From: Cellulomonas sp. URHD0024
GTDB taxonomy: Bacteria; Actinomycetota; Actinomycetes; Actinomycetales; Cellulomonadaceae
Length of the DNA stretch: 64,000 bases
Direction of reading: 5' to 3'
Assembly (NCBI RefSeq): GCF_000426185.1
Contig: NZ_AUEW01000001.1
Coordinates: forward strand, 744,001 to 808,000
The notes under the pieces were generated by a model that had not been told where the DNA came from, ran no database searches, and saw only the letters and a program-made list of their open reading frames with translations. Position numbers and translations under genes: made by a program. Below, in pieces: positions 37,225 to 42,461 of the stretch (positions are counted from its first letter, which is position 1; each line of letters begins with the position of its first letter).

Positions 37225-37623
37225 TCAGTGCGCGTGCTGCCCGCGAGAGAACTCGAAGACCCAGCCGACGAGTCCGATGACACCCAGGGCGACGCCGATG
37301 CCGACGAGCCAGAAGTCGATGGCGAGCCCCGCGAACGCGATCGCGGCGGCCACACCGAGGACGAGCGGCCACCAGCTCCACGGGCTGTACACACCCTGGT
37401 CGCCGGCGCCCTGCTCGATCTGACCGTTCGGGTCGTCCTCGGGGCGTTCGTCGATGCGGCGGCCCAGCAGCGCGAAGTACGCGCCGATCATGCCGACCAG
37501 ACCACCCACGAGCGGGATGCCGACGGTCCCGACCGCCTCGCCACCGCTCCACCAGGCGTAGATCAGACCGACCGGTACGAAGAAGAGAACTCCGTAGAGG
37601 AAGAGCTTGGTCTCGAGCTTCAT
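37225..37623 (-). CDS. ctaF: Cytochrome c oxidase subunit IV (actinobacterial)
   Basis: 132 aa. Four membrane helices ([77 protein letters not shown]). The [11 protein letters not shown] motif is diagnostic of CtaF. It is a structural subunit of the aa3 oxidase in the supercomplex. ATG overlaps the ctaD stop by ATGA, so it is last in ctaC-ctaD-ctaF. Confidence 0.93.
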
Positions 37624-39431
37624 CGCGTCTCGTCCTCGTCCGTTCCGGCTCCGTCATCCACGATCGTCGCTGTGGACTGCTCGGGCTCGCCGGTCCCGTG
37701 CATGATCCGATCGCGGGCGACGCTCTGCTGGCCGCGGCGGTCCGACTCCCAGTCGAGCACAGGGTTGGGATCCGGCTCGACGAAGTCCATGGCAGCCACC
37801 TCAGGGTGGTGCAGGTCGAACGCCGGACGCTCCGAACGGATACGTGGCAGCGACGTGAAGTTGTGCCGCGGGGGCGGGCAGCTGGTGGCCCACTCGAGCG
37901 AGGCGCCGTAACCCCACGGGTCGTCGACGGTCACGAGCGGGGCGTTGCGCCAGGTCGTGTACACGTTCCAGAGGAAGGGCAGCGTCGACGCGGCGAGGAT
38001 GACGGCGCCGATCGTCGAGACCTGGTTCATCGTCGTGAAGCCGTCTGCTGGCGAGTAGTCGGCGTACCGGCGCGGCATGCCCTTCACACCCAGCCAGTGC
38101 TGGATGAGGAAGGTGGTGTGGAAGCCGATGAACAGCATCCAGAAGTGCACCTTGCCGAGGCGCTCGTCGAGCATCCGGCCGGTCATCTTGGGCCACCAGA
38201 AGTAGAACCCGGCGAACATGGCGAACACCACGGTTCCGAAGACCACGTAGTGGAAGTGGGCGACGACGAAGTACGAGTCCGACAGCTGGAAGTCGAGCGC
38301 CGGGCTGGACAGGATGATGCCCGTCAGACCGCCGAACAGGAACGTGACAAGGAAGCCGATCGTCCACAGCATGGGCGTCTCGAACGTGATCTTGCCCCGC
38401 CACATCGTGCCGATCCAGTTGAAGAACTTCACACCGGTGGGCACCGCGATCAGCATCGTCATGAACGAGAAGAACGGCAGCAGGACCGATCCGGTGACGT
38501 ACATGTGGTGCGCCCAGACGGTCACCGACAGGGCGGCGATGGCGATCGTGGCGTACACCAGACCGCGGTAGCCGAAGATCGGTTTGCGGCTGAACACCGG
38601 CAGGATCTCGGTCACGATGCCGAAGAACGGCAGCGCGATGATGTAGACCTCCGGGTGCCCGAAGAACCAGAACAGGTGCTGCCAGAGGATGGCGCCGCCG
38701 TTCTCGGGGTTGAACACCTGGGCGCCGAACCGTCGGTCCGCGCCGAGCGCGAACAGTGCCGAGGCGAGCGGCGGGAACGCCATGAGCACGAGCAGCGACG
38801 TCACCAGGGTGTTCCAGGTGAAGATCGGCATGCGGAACATGGTCATTCCGGGGGCGCGCATGGTGACGATCGTCGTGATGAAGTTGACGGCACCCAGGAT
38901 CGTGCCGAAGCCGGCGAGCGCCAGCCCGAACACCCAGAGGTCTCCACCGAGCCCCGGTGAGTAGACCGTGTTGGACAGCGGCGCGTAGGCGAACCATCCG
39001 AACGACGCGGCGCCCTGGGGTGTGAAGAAGCCGAACCCGGCGATCGTGCCGCCGAAGAAGAAGAACCAGTACGCGAGCATGTTCAGCCGCGGGAACGCGA
39101 CGTCGGGCGCACCGATCTGCAGAGGCATGATCACGTTGGCGAACCCGGCGAACAGGGGCGTCGCGAACAGCAGCAGCATGATCGTGCCGTGCATGGTGAA
39201 CGCCTGGTTGTACTGCTCCTTCGACTGGAACACCTGCATGCCCGGGTCGAAGAGCTCCGCGCGGATGAGCAGCGCGAGGGTGCCGCCGACGGCGAACCAG
39301 ACGAACGACGTGATCAGGTAGAGGTACCCGATCGTCTTGTGGTCGGTGGAGGTGATCCACTTGATCACCGTGCGGCCTAGCGTCTGGCGCGACGGCGCCA
39401 GTCCGGGGATGTGCTCCGCGACGGCAGCCAT
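37620..39431 (-). CDS. ctaD: Cytochrome c oxidase subunit I
   Basis: 603 aa, twelve membrane helices. CuB/haem site [15 protein letters not shown] (His-Tyr crosslink pair), AHHMYVTG (CuB His pair), and haem ligands in [14 protein letters not shown] and [13 protein letters not shown]- and D-channel residues are visible. The polar C-terminal tail of about 60 residues is typical of actinobacteria. It reduces O2 and pumps protons. TGATG overlap with the ctaC stop. Confidence 0.96.
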
Positions 39432-40315
39432 CAGTTCTCGCCTTCCTTCGCCGCGTCGGGCGCGGTGTCCTGCTGGCGGCTGTACTCGAGTCCGAGCGAG
39501 CCTTCCTGGCCCTTCTCCTGGAGCTCCTTGATGTGTGTGTCGTACTCCTCGCGCGAGACCACGTTGACGTTGAACAGCATCGACGAGTGGTACTCACCGC
39601 AGAGCTCGGCGCACTTGCCCTCGTAGAAGCCGATCACCCTCGGCGTGAGCTGGAAGGAGTTCGTCTTGCCGGGGATGACGTCCATCTTCATGAGGAAGTC
39701 GGGCACCCAGAACGAGTGGATGACGTCGCGCGAGTTGAGCGTGAACGTGACCGACTCGTCGACGGGGAGCCAGAGCGTGACCTGGTCACGCAGCACGCCC
39801 GTGCCGGCGCTGCCGACGTCCTGCGCGTGCTGGCCGGTCTCGTACGCGTCGTCGTCGAGGTAGTTGAAGTCCCAGCTCCACTGCTTGCCGATGACCTGCA
39901 CGTGGTTCTCGGTCTTCGCCGACGTGTCGACGAGCGCCGTCGTGTCGCGGTTCGTGTAGTAGAACAGCACGCCGACCATGATGATCGGCAGGATCACGTA
40001 CATGATCTCGAGCGGCACGTGGTACCGGAGCTGCACCGGGAGGGTGTCGTCCGCCTTGCGCTTCCGGTAGACGGTGACGCACCACAGGATCAGGCCCCAG
40101 GTGATGACGCCGACGATGAGCGCGGCGATCCAGGAGCCGACCCACAGGCTCGTGATCCGACCGGTCTGGTTGGTGATCTCGTGCTCCGACGAGCCAGGCA
40201 GGAAGCCTCGCTCCACCTGCTCGGAGCATCCGCTCAGGAGGACGACGGCGACAGCAAGCAGACCAGCCAGGACCAGCGCTGGCCGCCGCGTGCGGCGGGG
40301 GGTGTCCGGGTGCAA
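39431..40315 (-). CDS. ctaC: Cytochrome c oxidase subunit II (lipoprotein)
   Basis: 294 aa. Signal peptide with lipobox LLSGC (Cys30 lipidated), two membrane helices, then a cupredoxin domain with the CuA site [12 protein letters not shown] and the upstream VIHSFWVP His. Electrons arrive here from the cytochrome cc subunit. TTG start at 40315, supported by GAGAGG about 9 nt upstream and by the family N terminus. A TAGGCT -10 candidate (40397-40402) would give a leader of about 75 nt. Confidence 0.94.
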
Positions 40316-40396
40316 CGGGGGGACCTCTCACTCGCGTCCCGTCGGCGCTCCCATGGTGCGGTGGCGTCGTCCGGGACCTTCGTCCTCGACTGGTGC

Positions 40397-40402
40397 AGCC
40401 TA
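40397..40402 (-). promoter_or_regulatory. Candidate -10 element TAGGCT of ctaC-ctaD-ctaF
   Basis: TAGGCT on the minus strand in the 256-nt divergent region; start near 40390, then a leader of about 75 nt with a Shine-Dalgarno before the TTG at 40315. Confidence 0.35.
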
Positions 40403-40559
40403 GCGCCCCGGGCCGCGCGTTTCGTGCTGGGCTCGACTCTTGACGACGCCGTGTCAGCACGACGTTCGTCACGTCAGGCCCCGGTCCGCACGGGGGGTGC
40501 ACAGCCCGGCGGGCCGTCCGGGAGGACCGTCTCCCGCCTGGTCACGCGCCTCGCGGGGT

Positions 40560-40565
40560 TAACGT
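40560..40565 (+). promoter_or_regulatory. -10 element TAACGT, leaderless start of the NifS-fold gene
   Basis: TAACGT ends 6 nt before the GTG at 40572. Confidence 0.55.
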
Positions 40566-40571
40566 GCCTCC

Positions 40572-41759
40572 GTGAGCACGAGTGGTGAACGCGAGACGAC
40601 CCGACCGCGCGAGGCGCCCGTTGTGACCGACACCACTGTCGGGCGGGTCGTCCTCGACGCCGGCGGGCACGCTCCGCTGCTCGCGGAGGCCCGCGCCGCG
40701 TTCGTCGAGGCGCTGGACCAGGGGTGGGCGGACCCGCGCAGGCTGCATGCAGAGGGTCGGCGGGCTCGCATGCTGCTCGACGGCGCACGGGAGGCGATCG
40801 CCGCAGTCGTGGGCGTCCGGACGCAGGACGTCGACCTGTCTCCGTCGCACACCGCTGCGCTCCACGCGGCTGTTCGATCGGTGGCGCGGGGTCGTCGTCG
40901 CGTGGGTGGCGACATCGTCGTGGGCGCCGTCGAGCGCGCGGCCGTGCTGAATGCCGCCGATTTCGCCGGCCACCGGGTCACGGTGCCCGTCGACTCGACC
41001 GGTCGGGTGGATGCGCTCGCCTTCGCCGACGTCGTCCGCCTGCCTGGGGTAGCACTCGCGGCCCTGCAGCACGCGAACGGGGAGGTGGGCACGCTCCAGC
41101 CCGTCGGGGCCGTCCATGACGCTGCGCGCACAGCCGGTGTCCCGCTGCTCGTCGATGCGGGCGCGAGCCTCGGACACGTCGACGTGGGTGATGCCTGGGA
41201 CCTGCTCGCCGGCGACTCGGGCGACTGGGGAGGTCCCGGAGGGCTCGGGGTGCTCGTCACACGCGCCGGGGTGCGTCGCTCCCCCGACTGGCCCGACGAC
41301 GAGGACCGCTGGTTCCCCGGGGGCGTCAGCGTCCCCGCTGCGCTCGCCGCGGCCGTGGCACTGCAGGTGGCCACCGGTGCGCCGGACGACGTCCGCCGGC
41401 GCGAGCTGATCGACACGGTGCGCACGCGGGTGGCTGCCGAGGTCCCCGACGTCGATGTCGTGGGCGATGCCGTGGAGCGACTCCCCCACGTCCTGACCTT
41501 CTCCTGCCTCTATGTCGAGGGGGAGGCGCTCCTGGGCGCGCTGGACGCACGCGGGTTCGCGGTCGGATCCGGGTCGGCGTGCACGTCGAGCGCGCTCGAA
41601 CCGAGCCACGTCCTTGCCGCCATGGGGGCCCTCACCCACGGCAACATCCGCCTCGCGCTACCCCGCGGCGCACGCTCGGCAGAGGTGGGCAGATTCCTGG
41701 ACGAGCTGCCGGGCATCGTCGCGGCGGTGCGGGAGTCGTGGGGGGTCACAGCGCTGTGA
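40572..41759 (+). CDS. NifS/cysteine-desulfurase-fold protein without any lysine (probable pseudoenzyme)
   Basis: 395 aa, class V aminotransferase fold: LQHANGEVGTLQPVGA, LLVDAGASLGHVDV (Asp195 equals the PLP-pyridine Asp) and a cysteine loop VGSGSACTSS (Cys337). Aligned without gaps to the IscS segment DLMSFSGHKIYGPKGIG, residues 210-226 read DLLAGDSGDWGGPGGLG: the His is Gly217 and the PLP Lys is Asp218. The PLP-stacking His (EHxAV) is Arg122 and the PLP Gln is Ala198. There is no lysine in the whole protein, so no internal aldimine can form. The product is probably not a classical desulfurase; it may be a sulfur-transfer scaffold. It overlaps a TusA gene by GTGA. Leaderless start at GTG 40572. 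Fold assignment is firm, function is not. Confidence 0.8.
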   Translation: MSTSGERETTRPREAPVVTDTTVGRVVLDAGGHAPLLAEARAAFVEALDQGWADPRRLHAEGRRARMLLDGAREAIAAVVGVRTQDVDLSPSHTAALHAAVRSVARGRRRVGGDIVVGAVERAAVLNAADFAGHRVTVPVDSTGRVDALAFADVVRLPGVALAALQHANGEVGTLQPVGAVHDAARTAGVPLLVDAGASLGHVDVGDAWDLLAGDSGDWGGPGGLGVLVTRAGVRRSPDWPDDEDRWFPGGVSVPAALAAAVALQVATGAPDDVRRRELIDTVRTRVAAEVPDVDVVGDAVERLPHVLTFSCLYVEGEALLGALDARGFAVGSGSACTSSALEPSHVLAAMGALTHGNIRLALPRGARSAEVGRFLDELPGIVAAVRESWGVTAL

Positions 41760-41977
41760 TCGTCGTCGACGCCCGTGGGTTGCGCTGCCCGGCACCGGTG
41801 ATCCGGCTCGCCCGGGCCGCGAAGGACGCACCGGTGGGCAGCACGTTGACGGTGCTCGCGACCGATCCGGCGGCGGTGCACGACGTACCGGCCTGGGCCC
41901 GGATGCGCGGCCACGTCATGGTCGAGGCGACTCAGGCGGACGGCGTCCACTCGCTCACGGTCCGCACCCAGGCATGA
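41756..41977 (+). CDS. TusA/SirA family sulfur carrier
   Basis: 73 aa. VDARGLRCPAPVIRLARAAKDAPVGSTLTVLATDPAAVHDVPAWARMRGH: the CPxP motif holds the persulfide-carrying Cys, and ATDPAAVHDVP is the second family motif. It relays sulfane sulfur between desulfurases and acceptors. GTG overlaps the NifS-fold stop (GTGA), so the two are co-translated. Convergent with erpA across a terminator. Confidence 0.9.
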   Translation: MIVVDARGLRCPAPVIRLARAAKDAPVGSTLTVLATDPAAVHDVPAWARMRGHVMVEATQADGVHSLTVRTQA

Positions 41978-42018: not shown

Positions 42019-42369
42019 TCAGCTGAACGAGCCGCCGCACGCGCAGGCGCTGCCGGCGTTCGGGTTGTCGATCGTGAAGCCCTGCTTCTCGATCGTGTCG
42101 GCGAAGTCGATCGTCGCACCCTCGAGGTACGGGACGCTCATGCGGTCCACGACGACCTCGACGCCGTCGTAGTCCTTGACGGCATCACCGTCGAGGACGC
42201 GCTCGTCGAAGTACAGCTGGTAGATCAGGCCCGAGCATCCACCGGGCTGGACGGCGACACGAAGACGCAGGTCATCGCGGCCTTCCTGCTCCAGGAGGCT
42301 GCGCACCTTCCCGGCGGCGACGTCGGTGAGGAGGACGCCGTGCGTCGTGGTCTGCGTGGTCTCGCTCAT
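42019..42369 (-). CDS. erpA: A-type iron-sulfur carrier (ErpA/IscA/HesB)
   Basis: 116 aa. VLLTDVAAGKVRSLL, the first ligand Cys in VQPGGCSGLIYQLYFDE, and the CACGGSFS end with two more Cys. It carries Fe-S clusters to apo-proteins such as the Rieske subunit and NadA, both encoded within 9 kb. ATG 42369 is fixed by GGAGAG at 6 nt; an upstream in-frame start at 42438 adds unlike residues. TACCCT at 42462-42467 is a -10 candidate. It corresponds to Rv2204c. Confidence 0.92.
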   Translation of the reverse strand: MSETTQTTTHGVLLTDVAAGKVRSLLEQEGRDDLRLRVAVQPGGCSGLIYQLYFDERVLDGDAVKDYDGVEVVVDRMSVPYLEGATIDFADTIEKQGFTIDNPNAGSACACGGSFS

Positions 42370-42461
42370 AGTCTCTCCAGTGGGCTCACGGGATGGTGCG
42401 TCTGCGCAATCGGCCTTGGACCGTCTGCGTAACAGCACCCGGCGCCGAGTTGTTCCCCTCC

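Follow-up and report, generated by a model that had tools for sequence, protein, structure and literature searches.

The window, a stretch of 64,000 nucleotides from Cellulomonas sp. URHD0024 (contig NZ_AUEW01000001.1, positions 744,001 to 808,000), contained a gene for a 395-aa protein related to NifS and IscS, followed directly by tusA, with the stop codon of the first gene overlapping the start codon of the second (Table 1). Translation of the open reading frame gave a protein with no lysine. The protein matched PF00266 (Aminotran_5) with 79.9 bits against a cut-off of 21.5, and the NCBIfam desulfurase models far below their curated cut-offs, the best being TIGR03402 (NifS) with 177.9 against 530.75 bits. 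The closest relatives in the PDB were cysteine desulfurases. An AlphaFold2 model based on 44 sequences gave a mean pLDDT of 86.6 and a pTM of 0.86, and the top Foldseek matches of this model were IscS from Mycobacterium tuberculosis, human Nfs1 and IscS2 from Archaeoglobus fulgidus, with TM scores of 0.83–0.87. The Pfam match, the model and the Foldseek search all placed the protein in the class V aminotransferase family of fold-type I. The cysteine loop of the model was unordered or flexible, with pLDDT below 50 at residues 336–342. The 73-aa product of tusA contained both the PF01206 domain and the CPxP cysteine of TusA carriers, and was the only TusA of its genome. A preliminary description of the locus, as a lysine-free NifS-fold protein with Cys337 whose gene overlaps tusA by GTGA, was confirmed by the reading frames and the sequence.

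Table 1. Coordinates of the genes and residues discussed in the text. Positions are those of the window, except for the TusA2 example.
Feature	Position	Strand	Basis or remark
Lysine-free IscS/NifS-fold protein (putative pseudo-desulfurase), 395 aa	40572..41759	+	ORF, GTG 40572 to TGA 41759; PF00266
Arg122 codon, position of the PLP-stacking His (E. coli His104)	40935..40937	+	Arg in 52/67 of the order clade, His in 39/39 lysine-bearing orthologues
Asp215 codon, position of the PLP-phosphate Ser (E. coli Ser203)	41214..41216	+	Asp in 57/67 of the order clade, Ser in 39/39 lysine-bearing orthologues
Asp218 codon, position of the PLP lysine (E. coli Lys206)	41223..41225	+	Alignment
Mobile Cys loop, residues 331–341 (VGSGSACTSSA), with Cys337 (E. 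coli Cys328)	41562..41594	+	Cys337 in 195/195
His356 codon, residue covarying with the TusA-type partner	41637..41639	+	His in 145/145 with TusA, Gln in 28/31 with TusA2
tusA, 73 aa, RCPAP motif with Cys11	41756..41977	+	PF01206, 77.8 bits against a cut-off of 28.6
GTGA stop/start overlap (probable translational coupling)	41756..41759	+	Sequence
ctaC (cytochrome c oxidase subunit II), divergent neighbour	39431..40315	-	Conserved across the class
erpA/HesB-type Fe-S carrier (PF01521), convergent neighbour	42019..42438	-	Pfam; neighbour in many loci
TusA2 example	L350:3040-3333 (G045:C1:316039-316329); relatives in L351-L362		GGDLGCARLLVLLR, Cys kept, no CPxP

Residue equivalences were obtained by alignment to E. 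coli IscS, with the sequence taken from the MG1655 record. The PLP lysine of class I cysteine desulfurases was replaced by Asp218, while the stacking histidine, the PLP glutamine and the histidine preceding the lysine were replaced by Arg122, Ala198 (E. coli Gln183) and Gly217 (E. coli His205). Gly170 occupied the position of E. coli Asn155, and His93 a position at which glycine was invariant across the lysine-bearing orthologues. Two active site residues were kept, Asp195 at the position of E. coli Asp180, where the aspartate of IscS binds N1 of PLP, and Arg360 at that of E. coli Arg354. The loop carrying the nucleophilic cysteine, of the SSGSACTS type in desulfurases, was retained as GSGSACTSS with Cys337. 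This alignment upheld the assignments that had been made for Asp218, Gly217, Arg122, Ala198, the PLP aspartate and Cys337. The only other cysteine of the protein, Cys312 (41505-41507), adjoins the conserved strand that precedes the Cys loop, and its column held Cys in 53 and Phe in 26 of 80 orthologues from named genomes.

The complete absence of lysine, also remarked in the preliminary description, was correctly counted and is partly a composition effect, as the family is GC-rich and 19 of 39 lysine-bearing orthologues had no lysine besides the catalytic one. The meaningful loss is that of the catalytic residue together with the PLP pocket. Since no lysine is present elsewhere in the window protein, an internal aldimine through a lysine of its own is excluded, as is a displaced catalytic lysine. 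The E. coli IscS variants K206A, H104Q and Q183E are each reported to be without desulfurase activity (PMC9978102), which makes such activity very unlikely in the window protein. The same report describes some PLP as retained by K206A.

The replacement was found throughout the order of the source organism (Actinomycetales), more consistently than chance would allow. Residue 218 was Asp in 159, Ser in 19, Ala in seven, Thr in five, Glu in four and Gly in one of 195 further orthologues and never Lys, while Cys337 was conserved in every one; the question raised at the outset, whether orthologues beside tusA lack the lysine and keep the cysteine, is thus answered in the affirmative within the order. 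Across 80 named genomes, including species of Cellulomonas, Isoptericola, Oerskovia, Promicromonospora, Sanguibacter, Actinotalea, Luteimicrobium and Cellulosimicrobium among others, residue 218 was Asp in 79 and Gly in one, and the cysteine was present in all 80. A sample of the genus gave matches in 59 of 61 genomes, mostly an orthologue of 65–83% identity and a second desulfurase about 38% identical; the first 29 of these orthologues all lacked the lysine and all contained Cys337. Asp218 was considered as a compensating catalytic residue and rejected, because other lineages have Ser, Ala, Thr, Glu or Gly in its place. Of 297 genomes sampled from the order, 223 lacked the gene at a threshold of E < 1e-45.

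Orthologues from other orders of the class had an intact PLP site (AVEH, DAAQ and SAHKWGGP motifs), with TusA adjacent or fused. A tree was calculated from 117 sequences with the lysine columns left out; this was a quick tree without bootstrap and with some long branches. The 67 lysine-free sequences of the order formed one clade (SH-aLRT 87), with the lysine-bearing sequences adjoining it and lying outside. The lysine state changed at least five times on the best tree, three of these changes being forced by well-supported branches. Further lysine-free sequences occurred elsewhere in the class (L061, L151-L155, L174 and L175), and these losses were apparently independent of that in the order. 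The lysine-bearing orthologues with an intact PLP site in other orders indicate that the loss in the order is secondary and old. Orthologues with the PLP lysine had been named beforehand as a finding that would speak against a PLP-less protein; they do exist outside the order, and they date the loss rather than refute the idea. The reverse state was observed in L373 and L375 (genus code f62g214), in which the PLP lysine was kept and the loop cysteine replaced (GSPSSG and GSPRSG), suggesting PLP chemistry without a persulfide in these proteins.

Selection on the lysine-free gene was estimated from close pairs (dS 0.05–0.5, NG86), which gave a median dN/dS of 0.14 and a range of 0.07–0.24. Sites conserved in lysine-bearing and relaxed in lysine-free orthologues were mostly PLP contacts, namely residues 93 and 94 (Gly-Thr in the phosphate loop), 122, 170, 217 and 218. 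The mean gain in entropy at PLP sites was 1.09 bits, compared to 0.42 bits at conservation-matched sites (P 0.00075). The Cys loop became less variable, its entropy changing by -0.19 compared to +0.39 at matched sites, and 0.02% of control draws were as low. Variable PLP sites combined with a tighter Cys loop suggest that the gene has been retained for a function that needs the Cys loop and not PLP catalysis. Among the 196 lysine-free orthologues including the window, Asp195 and Arg360 were invariant and Asn169 was present in 195; the invariance of Asp195 and Arg360 suggests that the cavity may hold another ligand, or even non-covalent PLP.

These data identify the lysine-free gene, as judged from its pattern of substitution, as a maintained protein. 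A decaying remnant without function would account for the eroded PLP site, for the slight lengthening of branches in a small number of lineages and for the absence of the gene from most sampled genomes of the order. It is ruled out, and in our estimation scarcely credible, on account of the intact frame, the low dN/dS, the invariant Cys337, the tightened Cys loop and the conserved position of the gene. The pseudogene alternative raised in the preliminary description therefore found no support.

TusA was encoded directly downstream of the lysine-free gene in 144 of the 195 further orthologues of the order, and its cysteine was retained in 96 of the 97 lysine-free loci at which TusA was read. 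Ten lysine-bearing relatives had the two proteins fused, as did one lysine-free locus; the latter (L107:1498-2964) is a natural single-chain version of the lysine-free NifS-like protein and TusA and would be useful for structure work. TusA has been lost from the locus approximately 11 times. Most genomes without an adjacent TusA contained elsewhere a divergent TusA-like protein, termed TusA2, with the pattern GGDLGCARLLVLLR...DPVAPIDLPVWC..TGH, in which the cysteine is kept and the CPxP motif is absent. The TusA2 set comprised 23 members confirmed at E < 1e-20 and eight from weaker Pfam matches of the same shape. TusA and TusA2 were nearly exclusive, with a strong TusA2 match in one (G423) of 50 TusA-bearing genomes tested. 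Neither carrier was found in 20 of the 196 lysine-free genomes, mainly those with genus codes f46g112 and f1g86, and Cys337 was still kept there; the carrier-less genomes include G042, G251, G235, G393, G525 and G368.

The column most associated with the type of partner was residue 356 (Fisher p 3.6e-31, uncorrected; next column 7.5e-16). The TusA genomes counted in Table 1 include the window, and the TusA2 genomes without Gln at this position contained Gly (one) or His (two). When phylogeny was taken into account there were six supported independent pairs, of which four to five agreed and none opposed (sign test p ~0.06–0.13), so that the link between residue 356 and the partner appears strong as a pattern and modest in independent events. 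In E. coli IscS the substitution H350R, at the equivalent position, hardly changed TusA-dependent tRNA thiolation, which is given as 98% (PMC2854127), and the effect at residue 356 may therefore be specific to the family of the lysine-free protein. Asp52 of E. coli IscS is reported to be required for TusA binding (PMC2854127), and its column was Asp or Glu in 58 of the 67 sequences of the order clade; the TusA-docking residues as a group were no better conserved than matched sites and are given little weight here. Overall, the lysine-free protein appears from these comparisons to co-evolve with TusA, and a functional tie to TusA is supported by the adjacency of the genes, the fusions in relatives and the covariation of residue 356 with the partner.

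The genes around the pair are conserved. The ctaC gene was found at 116 of 119 lysine-free and 45 of 47 lysine-bearing loci, and ctaD-ctaC (subunits I and II, 37620-40571) diverge upstream of the NifS-like/tusA pair in both the active and the lysine-free versions of the locus. The two divergent units may share a promoter region, or the pair may be linked in function to the aa3 oxidase. The conserved ctaCD neighbourhood was not accepted as showing that the pair takes part in oxidase assembly, the whole region being syntenic in the active relatives too. Elsewhere the source genome encoded a NifS beside mnmA (motif TGHKVGGP), a SufS with SufU and SufD, and a second SufS-like protein; the HK motifs were intact in all three, which have the appearance of active desulfurases.

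The conserved loss of the PLP site, the strict retention of the Cys loop, the purifying selection and the linkage to a partner are together best explained by a PLP-free pseudo-desulfurase that works through Cys337, either relaying persulfide or giving a TusA-type carrier a place to dock, a reading from sequence comparison towards which we lean, if only slightly. In such a scheme the ancestor would have been a class I cysteine desulfurase that already had TusA as its partner; its PLP lysine would have been lost when the order arose, and the PLP-free protein retained. It would dimerise like IscS and present the mobile Cys337 loop, beside which the TusA-type carrier would dock. Because a pseudo-desulfurase would be unable to make a persulfide from cysteine itself, an outside donor is proposed: Cys337 may be charged with sulfane sulfur by NifS, by SufS/SufU or by the second SufS-like protein, or else by a persulfide of low molecular weight, and may then exchange it with the carrier cysteine, which would be that of TusA2 wherever the partner has changed and that of TusA otherwise, the direction of exchange and the final recipient being likewise conjectural. 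The absence of PLP and the transfer of sulfur are both inferred here from sequence patterns. Counting against the scheme are the invariant Asp195 and Arg360, the genomes that keep Cys337 with neither carrier, the small number of independent pairs behind the link of residue 356, and the slight effect of H350R in E. coli IscS. The suggestion of a PLP-less scaffold or persulfide acceptor in the preliminary description thus stands as the best reading, in that the protein is under selection, has a conserved Cys loop and is tied to TusA; the role assigned to it retains its inferential character. The wider proposal, of a former desulfurase turned PLP-free Cys-loop transfer platform across the whole order, with a swap from TusA to TusA2 mirrored by the change of His356 to Gln, is put forward tentatively, with somewhat more doubt than confidence.

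The main rival, drawn from analogy, is that Cys337 ligates a metal or an Fe-S cluster on a partner such as TusA, ErpA or SufU, the protein being a structural scaffold rather than a sulfur relay. The IscS2 of A. fulgidus, with the same fold and the same change of Lys to Asp, is described as ligating the IscU cluster through its cysteine (PMC7585200); erpA is the convergent neighbour at many loci, and lysine-free NifS proteins are found beside an IscU-like protein in other actinobacterial classes (L386, L388 and L391). The partner in the window is however TusA, which carries persulfide rather than serving as a scaffold for clusters, and no IscU-like gene was seen at the locus. The position of erpA beside the pair also belongs to the ancestral gene order, and the A. 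fulgidus loss is separate in the tree, so that a scaffold of this kind is regarded as unlikely.

Two further explanations are judged less likely still, to an equal degree. The protein could sequester TusA, perhaps also pairing with active desulfurases, and so tune sulfur flux, with Cys337 as a redox sensor. E. coli TusA is reported to affect the balance of IscS partners and Fe-S assembly (PMC11446229, PMC11302051), the gene overlap implies a fixed ratio of the two proteins, and strict conservation of the cysteine would suit a redox switch, but sequestration alone would not need a tightly conserved Cys loop, and the cysteine is kept where TusA is gone. Alternatively, the cavity could bind a substrate derived from cysteine or another thiol on which Cys337 acts, possibly with non-covalent PLP, giving a new catalysis without a PLP aldimine. 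The near-invariance of Asp195, Arg360 and Asn169 and the residual PLP binding of E. coli K206A fit such an activity, whereas the phosphate and stacking sites are eroded and vary between lineages, where a new catalytic site would be expected to be conserved, and residue 218 itself is variable (D/S/A/T/E/G).

Automated annotation is likely to name the lysine-free gene a cysteine desulfurase, a name that in its usual sense cannot apply, and models of sulfur metabolism in Cellulomonas and its relatives would be misled. The natural before and after pairs (orthologues with and without the lysine, TusA and TusA2, His356 and Gln356) make the roles of the IscS scaffold and Cys loop testable apart from PLP chemistry. 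The preliminary description lacked the A. fulgidus precedent, ctaCD as the divergent neighbour and the fact that TusA was repeatedly lost or replaced.

The closest known system is IscS2 of A. fulgidus (PDB 4eb5, 4eb7 and 4hvk; D199K mutant 4r5f), which like the window protein has the IscS fold, an Asp in place of the PLP lysine in the same column and an intact Cys loop, and which is described as being without desulfurase activity (PMC7585200, citing Marinoni 2012, Yamanaka 2013 and Pagnier 2014). The two differ in that IscS2 has IscU as its partner, with its cysteine proposed as an Fe-S ligand, and retains the stacking histidine (AVEH) that is lost in the window protein, the locus of which has an adjacent TusA and no IscU-type gene. 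A common origin of the two was not supported, as in the quick tree IscS2 grouped with E. coli IscS and the source genome's own NifS, away from the clade. IscS1 of Methanosarcina acetivorans is mentioned as a homologue of IscS that lacks the catalytic lysine (PMC7585200); it differs in its ISC context in an archaeon, and the likeness is drawn from its description alone. Three NifS-fold genes from other actinobacterial classes (L386:1456-2637, L388:1459-2637 and L391:1558-2736), with Leu at the position of the PLP lysine (SSDLLYGP) and an intact Cys loop, directly precede an IscU-like NifU_N gene, and are an apparent bacterial counterpart of the A. fulgidus IscS2-IscU pair; the IscU-paired arrangement of lysine-free NifS was found only in these other classes.

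The complex of E. coli IscS with TusA (PDB 3lvj; PMC2854127) has in common with the window pair the fold, a Cys loop opposite the TusA cysteine and part of the TusA-docking residues, while E. coli IscS is an active PLP enzyme and its tusA gene is not adjacent. In that complex the Cys loop of one subunit is reported to face the cysteine of TusA bound to the other subunit at approximately 4 Å (PMC2854127), a geometry assumed by analogy for the window pair. E. coli Trp45 corresponds to Arg63 in the window protein and is Arg in the active relatives as well, so the TusA interfaces are not identical. The lysine-bearing actinobacterial NifS-TusA pairs and fusions (L048, L157 and L164) are orthologous and have the TusA partner and the divergent ctaC in common with the window, and differ in their intact PLP site (AVEH, DAAQ and SAHKWGGP). 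Beyond the archaeal cases, no TusA-linked or lysine-free bacterial desulfurase was found in the open-licence literature, although reports in subscription journals are possible. A PLP-free IscS was already known from A. fulgidus and has been suggested for M. acetivorans IscS1 (PMC7585200). As far as that literature shows, the bacterial, TusA-linked and order-wide version is new, with its dated loss, tightened Cys loop and exchange of partner, and it carries the PLP-free IscS proteins beyond a handful of archaea, into an entire order of bacteria with another partner.
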